DNA of 64,000 nucleotides from positions 5,704,001-5,768,000 of the forward strand of contig NZ_CP114287.1 of assembly GCF_027111295.1 (NCBI RefSeq). Direction: 5' to 3'. Below are positions 10,562 to 17,269 of the stretch, piece after piece. This stretch comes from Flavobacterium gelatinilyticum. GTDB taxonomy: Bacteria > Bacteroidota > Bacteroidia > Flavobacteriales > Flavobacteriaceae. A program made the translations under genes and the position numbers. The notes beneath the pieces were generated by a model, which had not been told where the DNA came from, searched no databases, and saw only the letters and a program-made list of their open reading frames with translations. Position 1 is the stretch's first letter. The number at the start of each line of letters is the position of its first letter.

Positions 10562-10587
10562 CATTGCAGAAAAATTCTGTAATGATA

Positions 10588-10684
10588 CTTATCCAGAAAG
10601 ACTGAGGGAATGGGCCCGGTGAAGTCTTAGCAACCTGTTGCCGAATAAGGTGCTAAATCCTTCCGTTGTATGCGGACAGATAAG
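10588..10684 (+). ncRNA. SAM-I (S-box) riboswitch
   Basis: P1 is formed by CTTATC (10588-10593) and GATAAG (10679-10684). Between them are the S-box core words in order: ACTGAGGGAATGGGCCCGGTGAAG, TTAGCAACC, GGTGCTAAATCC and GGACAGATAAG. It binds S-adenosylmethionine and represses sulfur amino-acid genes. No classical terminator hairpin follows, so the expression platform is unclear. The next sizeable gene is a TlpA-like thioredoxin 240 bp away, rather than a methionine biosynthesis gene. Confidence 0.92.
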
Positions 10685-10742
10685 AAAAAAGATTGCTCGA
10701 ATCTGGATTAGGTCATCAACGTTAAATTCTTAATGTATTACA

Positions 10743-10927: not shown

Positions 10928-11917
10928 ATGAAAAAAATACTATTGGGTTTTGCCTTATTTGTTGGAGCTTTTCAAACTCAGGCGCAGGAAAATAATTTAC
11001 AATTAAAAGGAACTGTTGTCGATACAATTGTACAGTACGTTTATCTGCAAAAGTTTCATAATAAAATGTTTACGACTATTGATTCGGTAAAAGTAAAAGA
11101 CGGAAACTTTGCTTTTAAAACAAAAGTAAAAACGCCGGAATTATACGGATTAAGCGTAAATAAAGAAAGTTCGCCATTGTATATTTTCCTCGAAAAAGAC
11201 CCAATTACGGTTAAGCTGAGTCCAAAGAAATATTACAGCACTTCGGTTGTAGAAGGTTCAGCTTCGCAGGATTTGTTTGAAACCTATAAGAAAACAAAAG
11301 ATGCAGAAATCAGCAAATTCATTACAGAACATCCAAAATCTATTGTTTCGGCTTATGTATTGTACAGAAACTGGTCGTACAGGCTGTCTCCGGAACAGAT
11401 TACACAGAATATTGCTTTGCTGGATAAAAGTCTTCAAAATGTTACTTACGTGAAAGAATTAAAAGAACTGGTTACCGTATTAGACGGATTGGCGGTAGGT
11501 AAAAAAGCCCCTGATTTTACAGCCAGCGATCCTGATGGAAAACCAGTTCGTTTTTATGAAAATTTAAAAGGCTATACTCTGGTTGATTTTTGGGCTTCGT
11601 GGTGCGGACCCTGCCGAAGAGAAAATCCAAACATTGTAGCGGCTTACAAGGAATTTCATGATAAAGGATTCAATATTGTAGCAGTTTCACTGGATAAAAA
11701 GAAAGAAAACTGGGTAAAGGGAATTAAGGATGATAACTTAACATGGACACATGTTTCTGATTTATTGTTCTGGAACAGTGCCGTTGCCAGATTATATGGT
11801 GTAAGAGCTATTCCGGGGAATTATTTAGTTGATTCAAAAGGAATAATCGTTGCGAAAAACCTGCAGGGAGAAGAATTGCAAGCGACATTAAAAACGCTTT
11901 TAGAAAATAAAATCTAA
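10928..11917 (+). CDS. TlpA-like periplasmic thioredoxin with DUF4369-type N domain
   Basis: 329 residues. Signal peptide 1-19 (cut after QAQ), an N-terminal beta domain (about 22-110) of the DUF4369 kind common in Bacteroidota, a helical linker, then an AhpC/TlpA thioredoxin domain (about 190-329). WCGPC lies at 225-229 and the cis-proline loop is in VRAIPGNYLVD. It probably reduces disulfides in the periplasm. It is the first full gene behind the SAM riboswitch and sits 29 bp before a class V aminotransferase, so both may respond to SAM. Confidence 0.88.
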   Translation: MKKILLGFALFVGAFQTQAQENNLQLKGTVVDTIVQYVYLQKFHNKMFTTIDSVKVKDGNFAFKTKVKTPELYGLSVNKESSPLYIFLEKDPITVKLSPKKYYSTSVVEGSASQDLFETYKKTKDAEISKFITEHPKSIVSAYVLYRNWSYRLSPEQITQNIALLDKSLQNVTYVKELKELVTVLDGLAVGKKAPDFTASDPDGKPVRFYENLKGYTLVDFWASWCGPCRRENPNIVAAYKEFHDKGFNIVAVSLDKKKENWVKGIKDDNLTWTHVSDLLFWNSAVARLYGVRAIPGNYLVDSKGIIVAKNLQGEELQATLKTLLENKI

Positions 11918-11946
11918 GATAGAAAATACAATTTAGTTAATTTAAA

Positions 11947-13437
11947 ATGATAAAGGAAATGAATGCCATTGAACCAACAACAAAACCAACAGAGTCTGAA
12001 TGTTACTTTTCTAAATTCAGGGAAAATACAGTAGGAACAGACCATACTTTCGAATCGGTTTACGGACAACAAAATCTGTTATATGCAGACTGGGTTGCCA
12101 GCGGAAGATTATACGCTCCGATTGAAGATATTATGCTCAATAAAATAGGTCCGATGATTGCCAATACCCATTCATTTTCCAGTCAGACAGGAAAGGCTTC
12201 GACTTACGCTTACCAGTATGCAAGAGAGATTATCAAAAAAGCGGTTAATGCAGATGAATCGGATGTTTTGGTTACGACCGGAACAGGAATGACGGCCGCT
12301 TTATCGAAATTACAGCGTATCATGGGGTTAAGAAAAACCTATGAAAATGAAAACGACAGACCGGTGGTTTTTATCACTCATATGGAACATCATTCCAATC
12401 AGGTTCCGTGGTACGAAACCAATGCCGATGTGGTGATTCTGCCTGCTGATGAAAACAATTTAGTCGATCCGAAAATCCTTTCTGAAGAAATAAAAAAATA
12501 TGCCGGCAGAAGTCTGAAAATTGGTTCGTTTACGGCTTGTTCAAACGTTACCGGAATTATTACGCCTTATCACGATCTGGCAAAAATCATGCACCGGAAC
12601 GGCGGTTATTGCTTTGTCGATTTTGCTGCTTCGGCACCGTATGTAAAAATCGACATGCATCCGGAAGACTCTGAACAACAGCTGGATGCTATTTTCTTTT
12701 CGCCGCATAAATTTCTGGGCGGACCGGGAACCTGTGGTATTTTGGTTTTTAATGAGAATTTGTACCAGGCTGACTTTCCGGATAATCCGGGCGGAGGCAA
12801 TGTAAAATGGACAAATCCGCTTGGAAATTATTGTTACAGCGATGTAATAGAAGTTAGGGAAGACGGAGGTACTCCTGGTTTTCTGCAGGTAATGAGAGCA
12901 GCTTTGGCTTTAGAATTAAAAGAAAAAATGGGATTAGGAAACATTGCCAAAAGAGAGAAAGAACTTTTGGATCTGTGTTTTTCGAGGCTTCAAAAAATAC
13001 AGGGCTTGTCTATTCTGGGCGATCTTAAAAGTCATAGAATAGGCTGTGTATCTTTTGTTATCGAAGATATTCATTACAATTTGATTGTAAGGCTTTTAAA
13101 TGACCGTTTTGGAATTCAGGTTCGAGGCGGCTGGTCGTGTGCCAGTACGTATGCACATTATTTGTTTAATATTGACGAAAAACGTTCTAAAGCGATTACA
13201 AATGAATTACTGCAGAAAAACCAGACTAACAAACCGGGCTGGGTTCGTTTGTCGCTTCATCCGATAACCACAAACGAAGAACTCGAATTTATTTGCGATG
13301 CGATTCAGCAAGTGTCTTTAAACTATAAAAAATGGAGAAAAGATTACAGGTATAATGCAGCTGCAAATGAGTTTGAAAGTATTCATGTAAACGAAACAAT
13401 CAAAGAAGATGTTCAGGATTGGTTTCAACTGGACTAA
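11947..13437 (+). CDS. Class V aminotransferase, cysteine desulfurase-like
   Basis: 496 residues, PLP fold type I. The Schiff-base lysine is in FFSPHKFLGGP (Lys 255), the PLP phosphate and ring contacts are in TGTGMTAAL, THMEHHSNQVPW and VDFAASAPY, and a Cys sits in RGGWSCAS (Cys 398), the place of the catalytic loop cysteine of desulfurases. Longer than IscS/SufS and without the scaffold-binding features, so it could be a cysteine desulfurase, a selenocysteine lyase-like enzyme or an isopenicillin-epimerase-like enzyme. Sulfur metabolism is suggested by the upstream riboswitch and the downstream metNIQ. A second in-frame ATG (codon 5) is also possible. Confidence 0.82.
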   Translation: MIKEMNAIEPTTKPTESECYFSKFRENTVGTDHTFESVYGQQNLLYADWVASGRLYAPIEDIMLNKIGPMIANTHSFSSQTGKASTYAYQYAREIIKKAVNADESDVLVTTGTGMTAALSKLQRIMGLRKTYENENDRPVVFITHMEHHSNQVPWYETNADVVILPADENNLVDPKILSEEIKKYAGRSLKIGSFTACSNVTGIITPYHDLAKIMHRNGGYCFVDFAASAPYVKIDMHPEDSEQQLDAIFFSPHKFLGGPGTCGILVFNENLYQADFPDNPGGGNVKWTNPLGNYCYSDVIEVREDGGTPGFLQVMRAALALELKEKMGLGNIAKREKELLDLCFSRLQKIQGLSILGDLKSHRIGCVSFVIEDIHYNLIVRLLNDRFGIQVRGGWSCASTYAHYLFNIDEKRSKAITNELLQKNQTNKPGWVRLSLHPITTNEELEFICDAIQQVSLNYKKWRKDYRYNAAANEFESIHVNETIKEDVQDWFQLD

Positions 13438-13972: not shown

Positions 13973-14443
13973 ATGAAAACAATACCAAGAAGAGTAGTTA
14001 CAGGAGTAAAAAACGGAAAATCGATTATTGAGCAGGATGCAATTGTAACGAATGTATCAGAACATTTTCCGGGACTTATTATTTCTGATATCTGGTCAAC
14101 TGACAGTACTCCGGCGAAATTCGAAGAAAAAGTAATCGAAAATACCGCTTTTCCCAATACACCAAAAAACGGCAGTTATTTTCGGTACGTTCAGATTCCG
14201 CCCGACAAAGATTTAGGAATAGAAGCACCGGAAGGCCAGCCTCATCCGTTAATGCATCAAACCGATACTTTGGATTATATCATCATTATTTCAGGCGAAA
14301 TTTACCTCATTACAGATGAAGAAGAAACCCTCCTGAAAGCCGGAGATATCGTCATACAGCGAGGAACAAATCACGCTTGGAGCAATCGGTCTGATACGTC
14401 TTGTATCCAATTAGCCATTTTACTGGATGCAAAATCATTGTAA
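13973..14443 (+). CDS. Cupin-domain protein
   Basis: 156 residues, single conserved beta-barrel. The metal-binding cupin motifs are degenerate: LMHQTDTLDYIIIISGEIYLI (motif 1) and LKAGDIVIQRGTNHAW (motif 2). The family often annotated as cupin domain protein has no fixed function (isomerase, dioxygenase or regulator). It lies between the aminotransferase and the metNIQ attenuator but is separated from both by regulatory or repeat DNA. Confidence 0.8.
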   Translation: MKTIPRRVVTGVKNGKSIIEQDAIVTNVSEHFPGLIISDIWSTDSTPAKFEEKVIENTAFPNTPKNGSYFRYVQIPPDKDLGIEAPEGQPHPLMHQTDTLDYIIIISGEIYLITDEEETLLKAGDIVIQRGTNHAWSNRSDTSCIQLAILLDAKSL

Positions 14444-14552
14444 ATGAAGTACTAAAGTGTAGAAATCTACATCAAACGTTATAGTAGTCTATTATGTTGA
14501 TAGGGTATTAAAAGTTTTGAAAATTTATGCTTTAAAATTGAAAATAACTGTT

Positions 14553-14560
14553 TAAATTTG
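14553..14560 (+). promoter_or_regulatory. -7 element (TAAATTTG) of the metNIQ transcript
   Basis: Exact TAnnTTTG; the -33 position has TTT instead of TTG. The predicted start lies near 14567, just before the short leader ORF. Confidence 0.5.
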
Positions 14561-14568
14561 CAGCGGCA

Positions 14569-14664
14569 ATGACAAATAGTAACCAGAATATGAAGAATTA
14601 TTATAGCAGCAGCATGATGTGCTGTACTGCTGTTATGCGATTTAATGATCTGGCTTATATATAA
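14569..14664 (+). CDS. Putative Met/Cys-sensing leader peptide upstream of metN
   Basis: 31-residue ORF with two in-frame ATGs (14569 and 14590), containing the run S-S-S-M-M-C-C-T-A-V-M. It ends 17 bp before an intrinsic terminator that itself ends 21 bp before the metN start. The order of promoter, short ORF with tandem codons for the regulated nutrient, terminator and transport operon is that of ribosome-mediated attenuation (as in trp or his leaders). Ribosome stalling at Met/Cys codons when charged tRNA is low would be expected to prevent the terminator. The pairing of an antiterminator was not established by eye. Confidence 0.6.
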   Translation: MTNSNQNMKNYYSSSMMCCTAVMRFNDLAYI

Positions 14665-14681
14665 ACAACCTTATATTTTTC

Positions 14682-14716
14682 AAAAAGCCTTTCATGAATA
14701 TCTGAAAGGCTTTTTT
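14682..14716 (+). terminator. Intrinsic terminator (attenuator) before metN
   Basis: AAAAAGCCTTTCA (14682-14694) pairs with TGAAAGGCTTTTTT (14703-14716), followed by more T-rich sequence. It lies between the leader ORF and metN in the direction of transcription, so it must be bypassed for metNIQ expression. Confidence 0.8.
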
Positions 14717-14737
14717 GTTTTGTAAATCTGAATAAGA

Positions 14738-15769
14738 ATGATTGAATTAAAAAATGTAACCAAAACGTTTCATCAGAAAGACAGAATTGTGACTGCGTTG
14801 TCTGATGTTTCGCTCACGGTGCCGCCCGGGAAAATTTTTGGTGTTATAGGGACTTCGGGTGCAGGAAAAAGTACTTTAATACGCTGTGTCAATTTACTGG
14901 AAAGGCCTACATCAGGAGAAATTATTGTAGACGGCAAAGCTTTGATGCAATTGTCAAATGCACAGTTAGCAATTGAAAGAAGACAAATTGGAATGATTTT
15001 TCAGCACTTCAATTTACTTTCGTCAAGAACCGTTTTCGAAAATGTGGCTTTTCCGTTAGAATTAACCGGAACTCCAAAAAGCGAAATTAAAAATCGTGTT
15101 TTAGAATTGCTGCAATTGGTGGGGCTGGCTGAAAAAGCAAACGATTATCCGGCAAGCCTTTCCGGCGGACAGAAACAAAGAGTTGCAATTGCAAGAACTC
15201 TGGCTAATAATCCAAAAGTGCTTTTGTGCGATGAAGCGACAAGTGCGCTGGATCCTGCTACTACACGTTCTATTTTGAACTTATTGAAAGACATTAACAA
15301 ACGATTGAATATTACCGTTTTGCTGATTACACACCAAATGGAAGTAGTAAAATCGATTTGTGATGAGGTTGCCGTTATCAGCCACGGAAAATTAATAGAG
15401 CAGGGAAGTGTAGGTGAAATTTTCGCCGATCCAAAACACGAACTGACAAGAGAGTTTATTTCTTCTTCGCTGCATATTGATGTTCCAGCGGTTTACGAAG
15501 AAAAATTGCAGAAGGAAGACGACGGAACTTTGAATCCGTTATTGAAACTGGAAATGACCGGAAAATCAGTTAACGAACCTGTTATCTCCGAAGTTTCAAG
15601 ACTCTTCGATACCGATTTTAAAATCGTAAGCGCTCAGATGGATCAGGCGGGCGATGTAAATTTTGGCGTTATGCTGATTGAATTATCCGGTAAGCGCGAA
15701 AATTACGCCGCGGCGATTCAGTATTTTAATTCAAAACATATTAAAACAGAAATTATAGGTTATGTCTGA
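14738..15769 (+). CDS. metN: Methionine ABC transporter ATP-binding protein
   Basis: 343 residues, full length for MetN. Walker [10 protein letters not shown] (38-46), Q-loop FQHFNLL, signature LSGGQKQR, Walker [13 protein letters not shown] and H-loop ITHQ are all present. The C-terminal NIL domain (about 260-343) is the methionine-binding domain that causes trans-inhibition by intracellular methionine. Overlaps metI by 8 bp. First gene of metNIQ, behind a transcription attenuator. Confidence 0.95.
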
Positions 15770-16415
15770 TTCTCTTATAGATTTATTGTTAAAAGGAACA
15801 TGGGAAACCATTGTAATGACTTTTGTATCGGGATTTTTTGGCTTCTTGCTGGGACTTCCAACGGGAATTTTGCTTTTCCTCACCCGTAAAAATCAAATTC
15901 TGGAACAGCCGGTTTTAAACAGAACTTTATCTGTTATCGTGAATGTTTTTCGTTCTATTCCGTTTATTATTTTGATTGTTTGGATGATTCCGTTTACACG
16001 TGCTATAGTGGGAACTTCGATAGGTGTTAGTGCGGCATTAGTGCCTTTAAGTATTGGTGCGGCGCCGTTTATTGCCCGTTTAGTCGAAAATAGTTTGTTA
16101 AGTCTTCCGTCAGGTTTAATCGAAGCGGCAAGAGCTTTGGGAGCAACTCCGTTTCAAATCGTATATAAAGTATTACTGCCGGAAGCTCTGCCATCGTTGA
16201 TCAACGCAGCATCGATTACCTTAATTACTTTGGTAGGATATTCTGCAATGGGAGGTGCTGTTGGTGCCGGCGGATTAGGTCAGGTTGGGTATCAGTATGG
16301 TTATATTGGTTATGATGCCGTAACGATGAATTCGGTACTGGTTCTTTTGGTTATTCTGGTATTCCTGATTCAGTTTGCAGGTGATGCTTTATCAAAACGA
16401 TTTGATCATAGATAA
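15762..16415 (+). CDS. metI: Methionine ABC transporter permease
   Basis: 217 residues with five transmembrane segments and the EAA loop [24 protein letters not shown] that docks on MetN. Overlaps metN by 8 bp and is followed after 35 bp by metQ. Imports methionine (D and L forms) across the inner membrane. Confidence 0.95.
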
Positions 16416-16450: not shown

Positions 16451-17269
16451 ATGAATACGAAATTGAATATTTTAAAAACGGCAGGAATTTTGGCTTTGGC
16501 ACTTGTTTTATCAAACTGTGGAAATGAAAAAAAGAATGATCCTCACTTTATAAAAGTAGGAGTGGCGTCCGGACCTGAATTAAAAGTAGCTGAAGCGGCT
16601 AAAAAAGTTGCCAAAGAAAAATACGGACTGGAAGTTGAATTGGTTTCCTTCAACGATTATGTGATTCCTAACGAAGCTTTAAGCCAGGGTGATATTGATG
16701 CCAATGCTTTTCAGCATAAACCGTATTTAGATGAGCAGTCAAAACAGAGAGGGTATAAATTAGCCATTATAGGAAATACATTTGTTTACCCGATTGCCGG
16801 ATATTCTAAAAAGATTAAATCGCTTGGAGAATTAAAAAATGAAAGTACGATCATCATTCCAAATGATCCTACAAACGGCGGACGCTCGTTATTGCTTTTA
16901 CAGAAAAACGGTTTATTAAAACTAAAAGAAGGTGTTGGTTTATTACCAAAAGTTACTGACATTGTAAGCAATCCTAAAAACTTAAAAATTTTAGAATTAG
17001 AAGCACCTCAATTGCCTCGTGCTCTTGATGATGAAAATGTTTCTATAGCGATTATCAACAATACGTTTGCTTCTCAGGCAGGATTGGTTCCGTCTCGTGA
17101 TGCTTTATTTGTAGAAGATAAAGATTCACCTTATGTAAATCTGGTTGTAAGCCGTGAAGACAATAAAAATGAAGAAAAAATAAAACAGTTTTTACAGGCT
17201 TTCCAGTCTCCTGAAGTTGAAAAAGCAGCAGATAAGGAATTCAAAGGCGGTGCTGTAAAAGGCTGGTAA
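16451..17269 (+). CDS. metQ: Methionine-binding lipoprotein
   Basis: 272 residues of the NlpA/MetQ family. Lipoprotein signal with lipobox LSNC, then the KVGVASGPE start, NAFQHKPYLDEQ (the MetQ signature) and NPKNLKILELEAPQLPRALDD. Captures methionine for MetNI. Last gene of the operon, followed by a strong terminator. Confidence 0.95.
   Translation: MNTKLNILKTAGILALALVLSNCGNEKKNDPHFIKVGVASGPELKVAEAAKKVAKEKYGLEVELVSFNDYVIPNEALSQGDIDANAFQHKPYLDEQSKQRGYKLAIIGNTFVYPIAGYSKKIKSLGELKNESTIIIPNDPTNGGRSLLLLQKNGLLKLKEGVGLLPKVTDIVSNPKNLKILELEAPQLPRALDDENVSIAIINNTFASQAGLVPSRDALFVEDKDSPYVNLVVSREDNKNEEKIKQFLQAFQSPEVEKAADKEFKGGAVKGW

Follow-up and report, generated by a model that had tools for sequence, protein, structure and literature searches.

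Background

Methionine genes are known to be controlled mostly by SAM riboswitches, T-boxes and repressors. Leader peptides have also been considered in front of methionine transport genes: in Streptomyces lividans TK24, a candidate attenuator named metL precedes metNIQ, and Met-dependent attenuation was proposed for it (PMC8079986). Like the leader described here, metL is a short leaderless-transcribed ORF before metNIQ with several Met and Cys codons (MSTTSDRTPATEATTTPGARCMCRRMCAF), but what is reported comes from one genome and includes no typical Rho-independent terminator (PMC8079986). What the Flavobacterium locus has beyond this is an intrinsic terminator and a putative antiterminator, and the arrangement is conserved in many genomes and extends to further genes. 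By eye, the two leaders present no obvious sequence likeness beyond Met and Cys. Since a candidate Met leader before Streptomyces metNIQ has been published, the kind of element is already known.

Other leaders rely on Cys codons. The uORFC-8-2 motif, located before cysS in Rhodobacterales, contains a uORF bearing Cys codons in tandem and has a 3' end that resembles a terminator; ribosome-mediated attenuation was proposed for it (PMC8632094). It differs from our case in the phylum, the gene (cysteinyl-tRNA synthetase) and the use of Cys only. The cys-operon leaders of Actinobacteria, which are likewise short and precede sulfur genes, also contain consecutive Cys codons, although the report on them describes no conserved terminator hairpin and suggests Rho (PMC1262725).

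In Flavobacterium psychrophilum, strong clues were found for leader-peptide attenuation before amino-acid biosynthesis operons (PMC9723704); it belongs to the same genus, but methionine is absent from the main text of that study. Leader-like small ORFs are mentioned in Bacteroides (PMC7366714), and we found no Met/Cys leader case in the available text of PMC2965389 and PMC4833913. Among open-licence full texts, we found no description of leader-peptide attenuation at a methionine gene in Bacteroidota. A Met/Cys leader regulon in this phylum, together with attenuators arranged in series, appears to be new.

Results

Elements of the metN leader

We analyzed a window of 64,000 nucleotides (the whole stretch of DNA under study) from the genome of Flavobacterium gelatinilyticum. 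An earlier note on this DNA had claimed that metNIQ is preceded by a promoter box, a 31-codon ORF with Met-Met-Cys-Cys and an intrinsic terminator, with a SAM riboswitch further upstream. All the leader components are present (Table 1), and the riboswitch is real and lies about 3.9 kb upstream. MetN, MetI, and MetQ were identified by their scores against the NCBIfam cut-offs.

Table 1. Features of the metN leader, the metNIQ genes and the upstream riboswitch region, in window positions
Feature	Position	Strand	Basis
SAM-I riboswitch	10586..10686		
Thioredoxin-fold protein (DUF4369, AhpC/TSA) and class-V aminotransferase genes	10928..13437		
Candidate operator, palindrome-like, putative transcription-factor site, AGTCTATTATGTTGATAGG	14486..14504	+	exact site; function predicted
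-7 promoter box TAAATTTG (TAnnTTTG)	14553..14560	+	sequence
Leader ORF MTNSNQNMKNYYSSSMMCCTAVMRFNDLAYI, 31 codons plus TAA (ATG at 14569, TAA at 14662..14664)	14569..14664	+	sequence; kept in 25 distinct leaders
Segment A, CCAGA, could pair with segment B if the ribosome is absent	14583..14587	+	
Met-Met-Cys-Cys codons (ATG ATG TGC TGT)	14614..14625	+	sequence
Segment B, TCTGGCTT, putative antiterminator 5' arm, overlaps the ORF end	14649..14656	+	
Intrinsic terminator stem, followed by a T-rich tail	14682..14715	+	
Terminator 5' arm C, AAGCC	14685..14689	+	
Terminator 3' arm D, GGCTT	14708..14712	+	
metN (methionine ABC transporter ATPase)	14738..15769	+	TIGR02314, 545.6 vs. cut-off 499.7
metI (permease)	15762..16415	+	NF008049, 386.6 vs. 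cut-off 212
metQ (substrate-binding lipoprotein)	16451..17269	+	NF008285, 437.5 vs. cut-off 374

Three other identities were considered for the leader and rejected. A chance ORF was discarded because the leader is conserved and, among the 368 small ORFs of the window (15–40 aa, both strands), five of them Met/Cys-rich by the screen rule given below, it is the only Met/Cys-rich one with a terminator after it. The end of the upstream cupin transcript was discarded because the leader has its own promoter box and different upstream genes in other species. A known Rfam element was discarded because no family reached its gathering score in the leader; there were six sub-threshold matches up to E=1, the top one being the trpB motif (23.1 bits vs. 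a gathering score of 59). Within 14440–14760, the T-box covariance model had no match up to E=1 and no SAM riboswitch aptamer (RF00162, RF01726) was found, the only match in the window being the riboswitch in Table 1.

The leader ATG lies exactly 8 nt 3' of TTAAATTTG in all 25 distinct leaders that we collected. Since the TAnnTTTG box spans -12 to -5 (PMC9723704), transcription is predicted to start at about 14565, some 4 nt before this ATG.

Conservation in Flavobacterium

We searched MetN in 150 genomes of the genus, found metN in 26, and examined all 26 upstream regions. The leader was present in 23 of them, and no leader was found upstream of the three more divergent metN genes (L112–L114, with MetN 64–73% identical). 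In a separate Flavobacterium record set, it was present in the four loci that could be assessed (4/4), and a fifth contig starts too near metN. The 23 and 4 leaders, minus 2 duplicate sequences, gave the 25 distinct ones. Alignment A1 holds 24; L104, the remaining one, escaped the extraction rule and was added to the placement, shuffle, and codon counts. No such leader was found at the Pedobacter, Dyadobacter, and Apibacter metN loci.

At least one Cys codon of the doublet is kept in 25/25 leaders and both in 22/25 (one Cys is lost in 3/25), the first one being TGC in 17 leaders and TGT in 7. Relative to this doublet, position -1 is Met in 23/25 leaders and position -2 is Met in 21/25, with at least one Met of its own doublet lost in 4/25. 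Tyr-Tyr is also kept in 22/25; thus, conservation within the metN class does not single out Met and Cys. The leader peptide measures from 22 to 32 aa, and its stop position and C-terminus vary among orthologs.

We also sought four window genes near the 25 distinct leaders to identify the next upstream gene. The cupin lies within about 260 nt upstream in 4/25 (L089, L090, L096, and L102); in L110 it is 458 nt away. The aminotransferase is next upstream in L097 and L099, and another window gene is in L105. For most of the remaining leaders, none of the four genes was recognized upstream. The ORF, segment B, and the terminator are retained while the upstream gene differs between species.

RNA segments and their possible pairings

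Segment B contains GGCT in 24/24 aligned leaders, usually as GGCTT and as GGCTG in L107 and L109. In 25/25, its first base lies between -10 and +10 nt relative to the first base of the stop codon, and it falls in reading frames 2, 1, and 0 in 20, 3, and 2 leaders, respectively. Since all three frames are used and the position near the stop is kept, segment B is held as nucleotides rather than as peptide.

The putative antiterminator shares the 5' arm of the terminator, with B pairing with C. In the 24 aligned leaders, 97.5% of the cells of its outer helix and 92.3% of those of its inner helix are paired, and the terminator reaches 99.2%. Covariation in B:C is modest: in two pairs, amounting to 3 cells, both partners have changed. 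In comparison, 13/500 shuffles reach that number of both-sided pairs and 0/500 reach the percentage paired. Segment A covers codons 5–7: the last base of codon 5 is C in 25/25, even though the residue encoded is N, S, D, I, or F, and codon 6 is CAG in 23/25. The A:B pairing was predicted unprompted by RNAalifold and presented no covariation across the aligned metN leaders.

Leaders before other methionine genes

Met/Cys-rich leader ORFs with terminators also precede the Chryseobacterium metNIQ, a TonB-dependent receptor gene, and metY. The number and spacing of Met and Cys vary widely among leaders (MMCC, MMMCC, MSCKMPE, MCKMMPD, MNTCNVKSMICAKAMMCICVC).

The Chryseobacterium metNIQ leaders, e.g., MKSNFRNQSIKKHTINTMMMYCCMPELRNCCG and MKAELKYNSMKKHTIKNMMKDMCMPIHQEYCG, have a different terminator and a different antiterminator. 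Their profile (A5) matched 50 of 395 genomes of the order at E<=0.05. At E<=6.4e-5 there were 37 genomes, all from one genus (g240), taken as Chryseobacterium from identical peptides in named loci; weaker matches (E 0.0075–0.0415) were found in G105, G279, G454, G461, G467, G484, G500, G528 (second), and G651. One g240 genome also had a second, weak match (L233). In 29 of the 30 A5 loci fetched, metN or an EamA-like gene was the largest ORF just downstream. Many Chryseobacterium-type loci carry an EamA-like transporter gene between the leader and metN (L056, L058, L060, L064, L065, L068, L073, and many of L191–L220), named through Pfam PF00892 for the L065 protein and by eye for the other loci.

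In the genome of the window, a second leader (MKFTICNMMSCKMPELSAETLL) with its terminator lies before a TonB-dependent receptor gene divergent from metK (TIGR01034, 513.9 vs. 309.4). We located it via the operator motif, not via its Cys codons, and the receptor presents a Plug domain. The leader is found in 19/19 close orthologs (L161–L179) and was not recognized upstream of ten more distant receptors (L180–L189). Its antiterminator, GCAGAG:CTCTGC, has 100% of cells paired, with one both-sided change in L179 (GTAGGG:CCCTGC), and 59/500 shuffles do as well. In L190 (genome G096), an intact leader stands before a receptor gene that is split into two matches, which overlap.

For metY (O-acetylhomoserine sulfhydrylase; TIGR01326, 640.6 vs. 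495.1), found in 37/61 genomes, we fetched 30 loci. In 28/30, one or more Met/Cys-rich ORFs followed by a terminator lie within 730 nt upstream; the other two loci (L267 and L268) have none with a terminator there. Two such leaders stand in tandem in 13/30 loci. The tandem leaders are placed one before and one after the receptor gene, which is missing in some species; a weak match of the receptor profile in G060 proved to be a true tandem leader before metY. In the window's genome (L250), the metY leader (MKTIARRNIMCCKMMQMCIHSCCCQK) follows the receptor gene and is 463 nt upstream of metY, and an extreme case of Met/Cys richness is MNVIAKNMMSCMMMHMMMCCIGICYYQKRKT (L258).

The tandem leaders of L240, L242, and L245 leave no room for a receptor gene between them, which would fit either a loss of this gene or its insertion between the two putative attenuators. 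L250 and L240 have a further ORF of about 56–62 codons between the metY leader and metY, and this ORF is not rich in Met/Cys.

The earlier note had read the metN leader as a Met/Cys attenuator and proposed aligning the metN upstream regions as a check. On alignment, orthologs do keep the ORF, the Met/Cys codons, and the competing antiterminator pairing. Its reading gains further support from the leaders of other sequence at metNIQ, the receptor, and metY, which share the Met/Cys richness and the architecture.

Specificity of the signature

Our screen rule retained ORFs of 15–40 aa with at least four Met/Cys after the start, a Met/Cys share of at least 18%, at least one Cys, and a terminator within about 60 nt. 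With thresholds chosen after the leaders had been seen and on loci that are not a random sample, all distinct hits (30/30) in 106 Flavobacterium loci (380,784 bases; 2,208 small ORFs, 63 Met/Cys-rich) were metN or receptor leaders. The same rule gave 37 hits in 30 metY loci, all upstream of metY, and 9 hits in 15 Bacteroidota metN loci, all Chryseobacterium leaders. There were 0 hits in 59 non-Bacteroidota metN loci (465,964 bases; 2,386 small ORFs, 47 Met/Cys-rich). The rule misses some true leaders, for example L092, L096, L097, and the metY leader of the window's genome (L250), the last being recovered by a laxer rule.

Profiles of the metN, receptor, and metY leaders, run on 299, 299, and 397 genomes of the family, respectively, retrieved no convincing leader outside Flavobacterium, although such profiles would miss diverged ones. 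The weak matches inspected in other genera were coding or otherwise unrelated. In the window's genome, the A2 profile gave two true and two false matches and did not report the metY leader. The pattern ATGATGTGYTG occurs there at 10 sites, and the 9 examined were the window's own and 8 unrelated ones (L001–L008). With one mismatch, CTGGCTTATATA has 48 sites in this genome, about 2.5 times the reversed control.

Predicted folding with a placed ribosome

We placed a ribosome with the first of the two Cys-doublet codons in its A site, assuming a footprint that extends 13 nt beyond the A-site start. With the ribosome stalled there, the predicted probability of B:C was about 0.95 or more in 24/25 metN leaders. 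The exception was L092, with a changed C arm, where B:C was 0.01 in the usual register and C was otherwise sequestered (0.99). With no ribosome, the mean for the metN class was 0.70 for A:B vs. 0.29 for B:C. Segment B starts 25–33 nt after the stalled A site in 25/25 leaders; given this distance, the closeness of B to the stop codon and the assumed footprint, B would be free when the ribosome stalls and at least partly covered when the ribosome terminates at the stop codon.

Sequestration of C with a stalled ribosome was at least 0.9 in 25/25 metN, 19/19 receptor, and 8/10 Chryseobacterium leaders. In most members of the classes other than metN, C is sequestered with the ribosome on the main Met/Cys codons, and less so as the ribosome approaches the stop. 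L058, L249, and L262, from the metY and Chryseobacterium classes, keep C 0.4–0.6 sequestered even with the ribosome at the stop, and in metY leaders the last Cys codons sit at positions from which a stalled ribosome would cover part of B. When the segment from the ribosome to the terminator is dinucleotide-shuffled, the C sequestration is matched in about 20% of cases per sequence. Thus, the folding results support the model but do not decide the case, and they depend on conservation for their weight.

When no ribosome is placed, C sequestration still reaches 0.5 or more in 13/19 receptor and 10/10 Chryseobacterium leaders; therefore, transcription of these leaders would pass the terminator even if the RNA were not translated, in contrast to the textbook attenuator. 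One may speculate that in these leaders the absence of translation, e.g., from a shortage of initiator Met-tRNA, could itself favor readthrough.

Candidate operator sites

The operator AGTCTATTAnnTTGATAGG is conserved, with a similar site 5' of the leader in orthologs. A relative is found upstream of the receptor leader (L161 region), and Chryseobacterium L065 carries a near-perfect palindrome, AGTCTACTnnnnnAGTAGACT. This palindrome, in its clearest form AGTCTAyTnnnnnArTAGACT, lies 5' of leader promoters in both Flavobacterium and Chryseobacterium; in Pedobacter L015 it stands before metN. Its distribution points to a candidate shared sulfur regulator. In the operator search there were 11 near-matches besides the window's own, of which only L151 leads to a leader, and the reversed pattern gave more matches than the pattern itself; thus, the pattern alone is not specific.

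The promoter of the receptor leader (L164 and similar loci) resembles TAnnTTGY, the SM5 type. SM5-type promoters have been linked to amino-acid scavenging, among other functions (PMC9723704).

Discussion

The metN leader is very probably a classical ribosome-mediated attenuator that answers a shortage of Met, Cys, or both. Transcription would start just before the leader ATG, with the ribosome trailing RNA polymerase through the short ORF. When charged Met-tRNA or Cys-tRNA is scarce, the ribosome would stall at Met-Met-Cys-Cys and leave segment B free; B would pair with C before D is made, the terminator would fail, and metNIQ would be transcribed. With a good supply, the ribosome would reach the stop codon and cover B, C would pair with D, and transcription would end. 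The same logic with other sequences could operate at the Chryseobacterium metNIQ, at the receptor by metK, and at metY, where it is often found twice in series. Because similar switches precede other methionine genes, Flavobacterium probably senses sulfur amino-acid shortage through stalled ribosomes.

Regarding the signal, some metN leaders keep Cys without Met-Met (L010 and L110), whereas one Chryseobacterium leader type has Met-Met, a single Cys in the run, and one Cys near the end. This suggests that both Met and Cys are read by the leaders. We lean, with some reserve, towards a wider leader-peptide regulon in which Met and Cys would be read jointly to control import in Flavobacterium and Chryseobacterium and synthesis in Flavobacterium, with the serial metY attenuators giving a stepped response. 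This layer would act alongside, yet independently of, the SAM riboswitches that sense the end product at metK and other genes.

The alternative that survives best is nascent-peptide arrest, where the leader peptide would stall the ribosome on a sulfur metabolite (SAM, Met, or Cys) instead of on the lack of charged tRNA. The order MM-x-C-x-M-P recurs in receptor and Chryseobacterium leaders, and a proline that follows the Met/Cys run could contribute to the stall. However, the wide variation in Met/Cys number and spacing, with classes that share composition and not one fixed motif, makes arrest unlikely.

Less probable still, a transcription factor at the upstream operator would control metN, and the terminator and ORF would be incidental or merely end upstream transcription. 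The conserved operator and its relative at the receptor leader fit with this control. Nevertheless, the promoter box and the operator lie 5' of the ORF, which puts the terminator inside the predicted metN transcript, and the leader elements persist whichever gene comes next upstream; we consider this explanation very improbable. Finally, the conserved ORF could encode a functional small Met/Cys-rich protein (e.g., metal-binding), or the peptide or the terminated RNA could act in trans, as published elsewhere for a leader peptide (PMC7298713), but we give this almost no credit, given an end that shifts between orthologs, a segment B kept as nucleotides whatever the frame, and leader classes that share little but Met/Cys.

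If the attenuator reading is true, two large Bacteroidota genera would sense sulfur amino acids by ribosome stalling, and their leaders would provide a natural test of one leader with two amino-acid signals and of attenuators in series. The signature of a Met/Cys-rich small ORF plus a terminator would also help to annotate sulfur-amino-acid genes, such as the receptor beside metK.

SAM riboswitches (RF00162 and RF01726) resemble the leaders in that they control methionine and SAM genes and occur near these loci. Unlike the leaders, they sense SAM and not aminoacyl-tRNA, and none is found in the metN leader itself. These loci place SAM sensing next to Met/Cys leaders. In the window, the SAM-I riboswitch precedes the genes for the thioredoxin-fold protein and the class-V aminotransferase, the latter being related to cysteine desulfurases. 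SAM-II riboswitches lie on the other side of receptor and metY leaders, at L161:3097-3203 (metK side) and L235:267-373, and L253:771-874 and L253:3244-3368 hold a SAM-II riboswitch plus a SAM-I riboswitch beyond metY.
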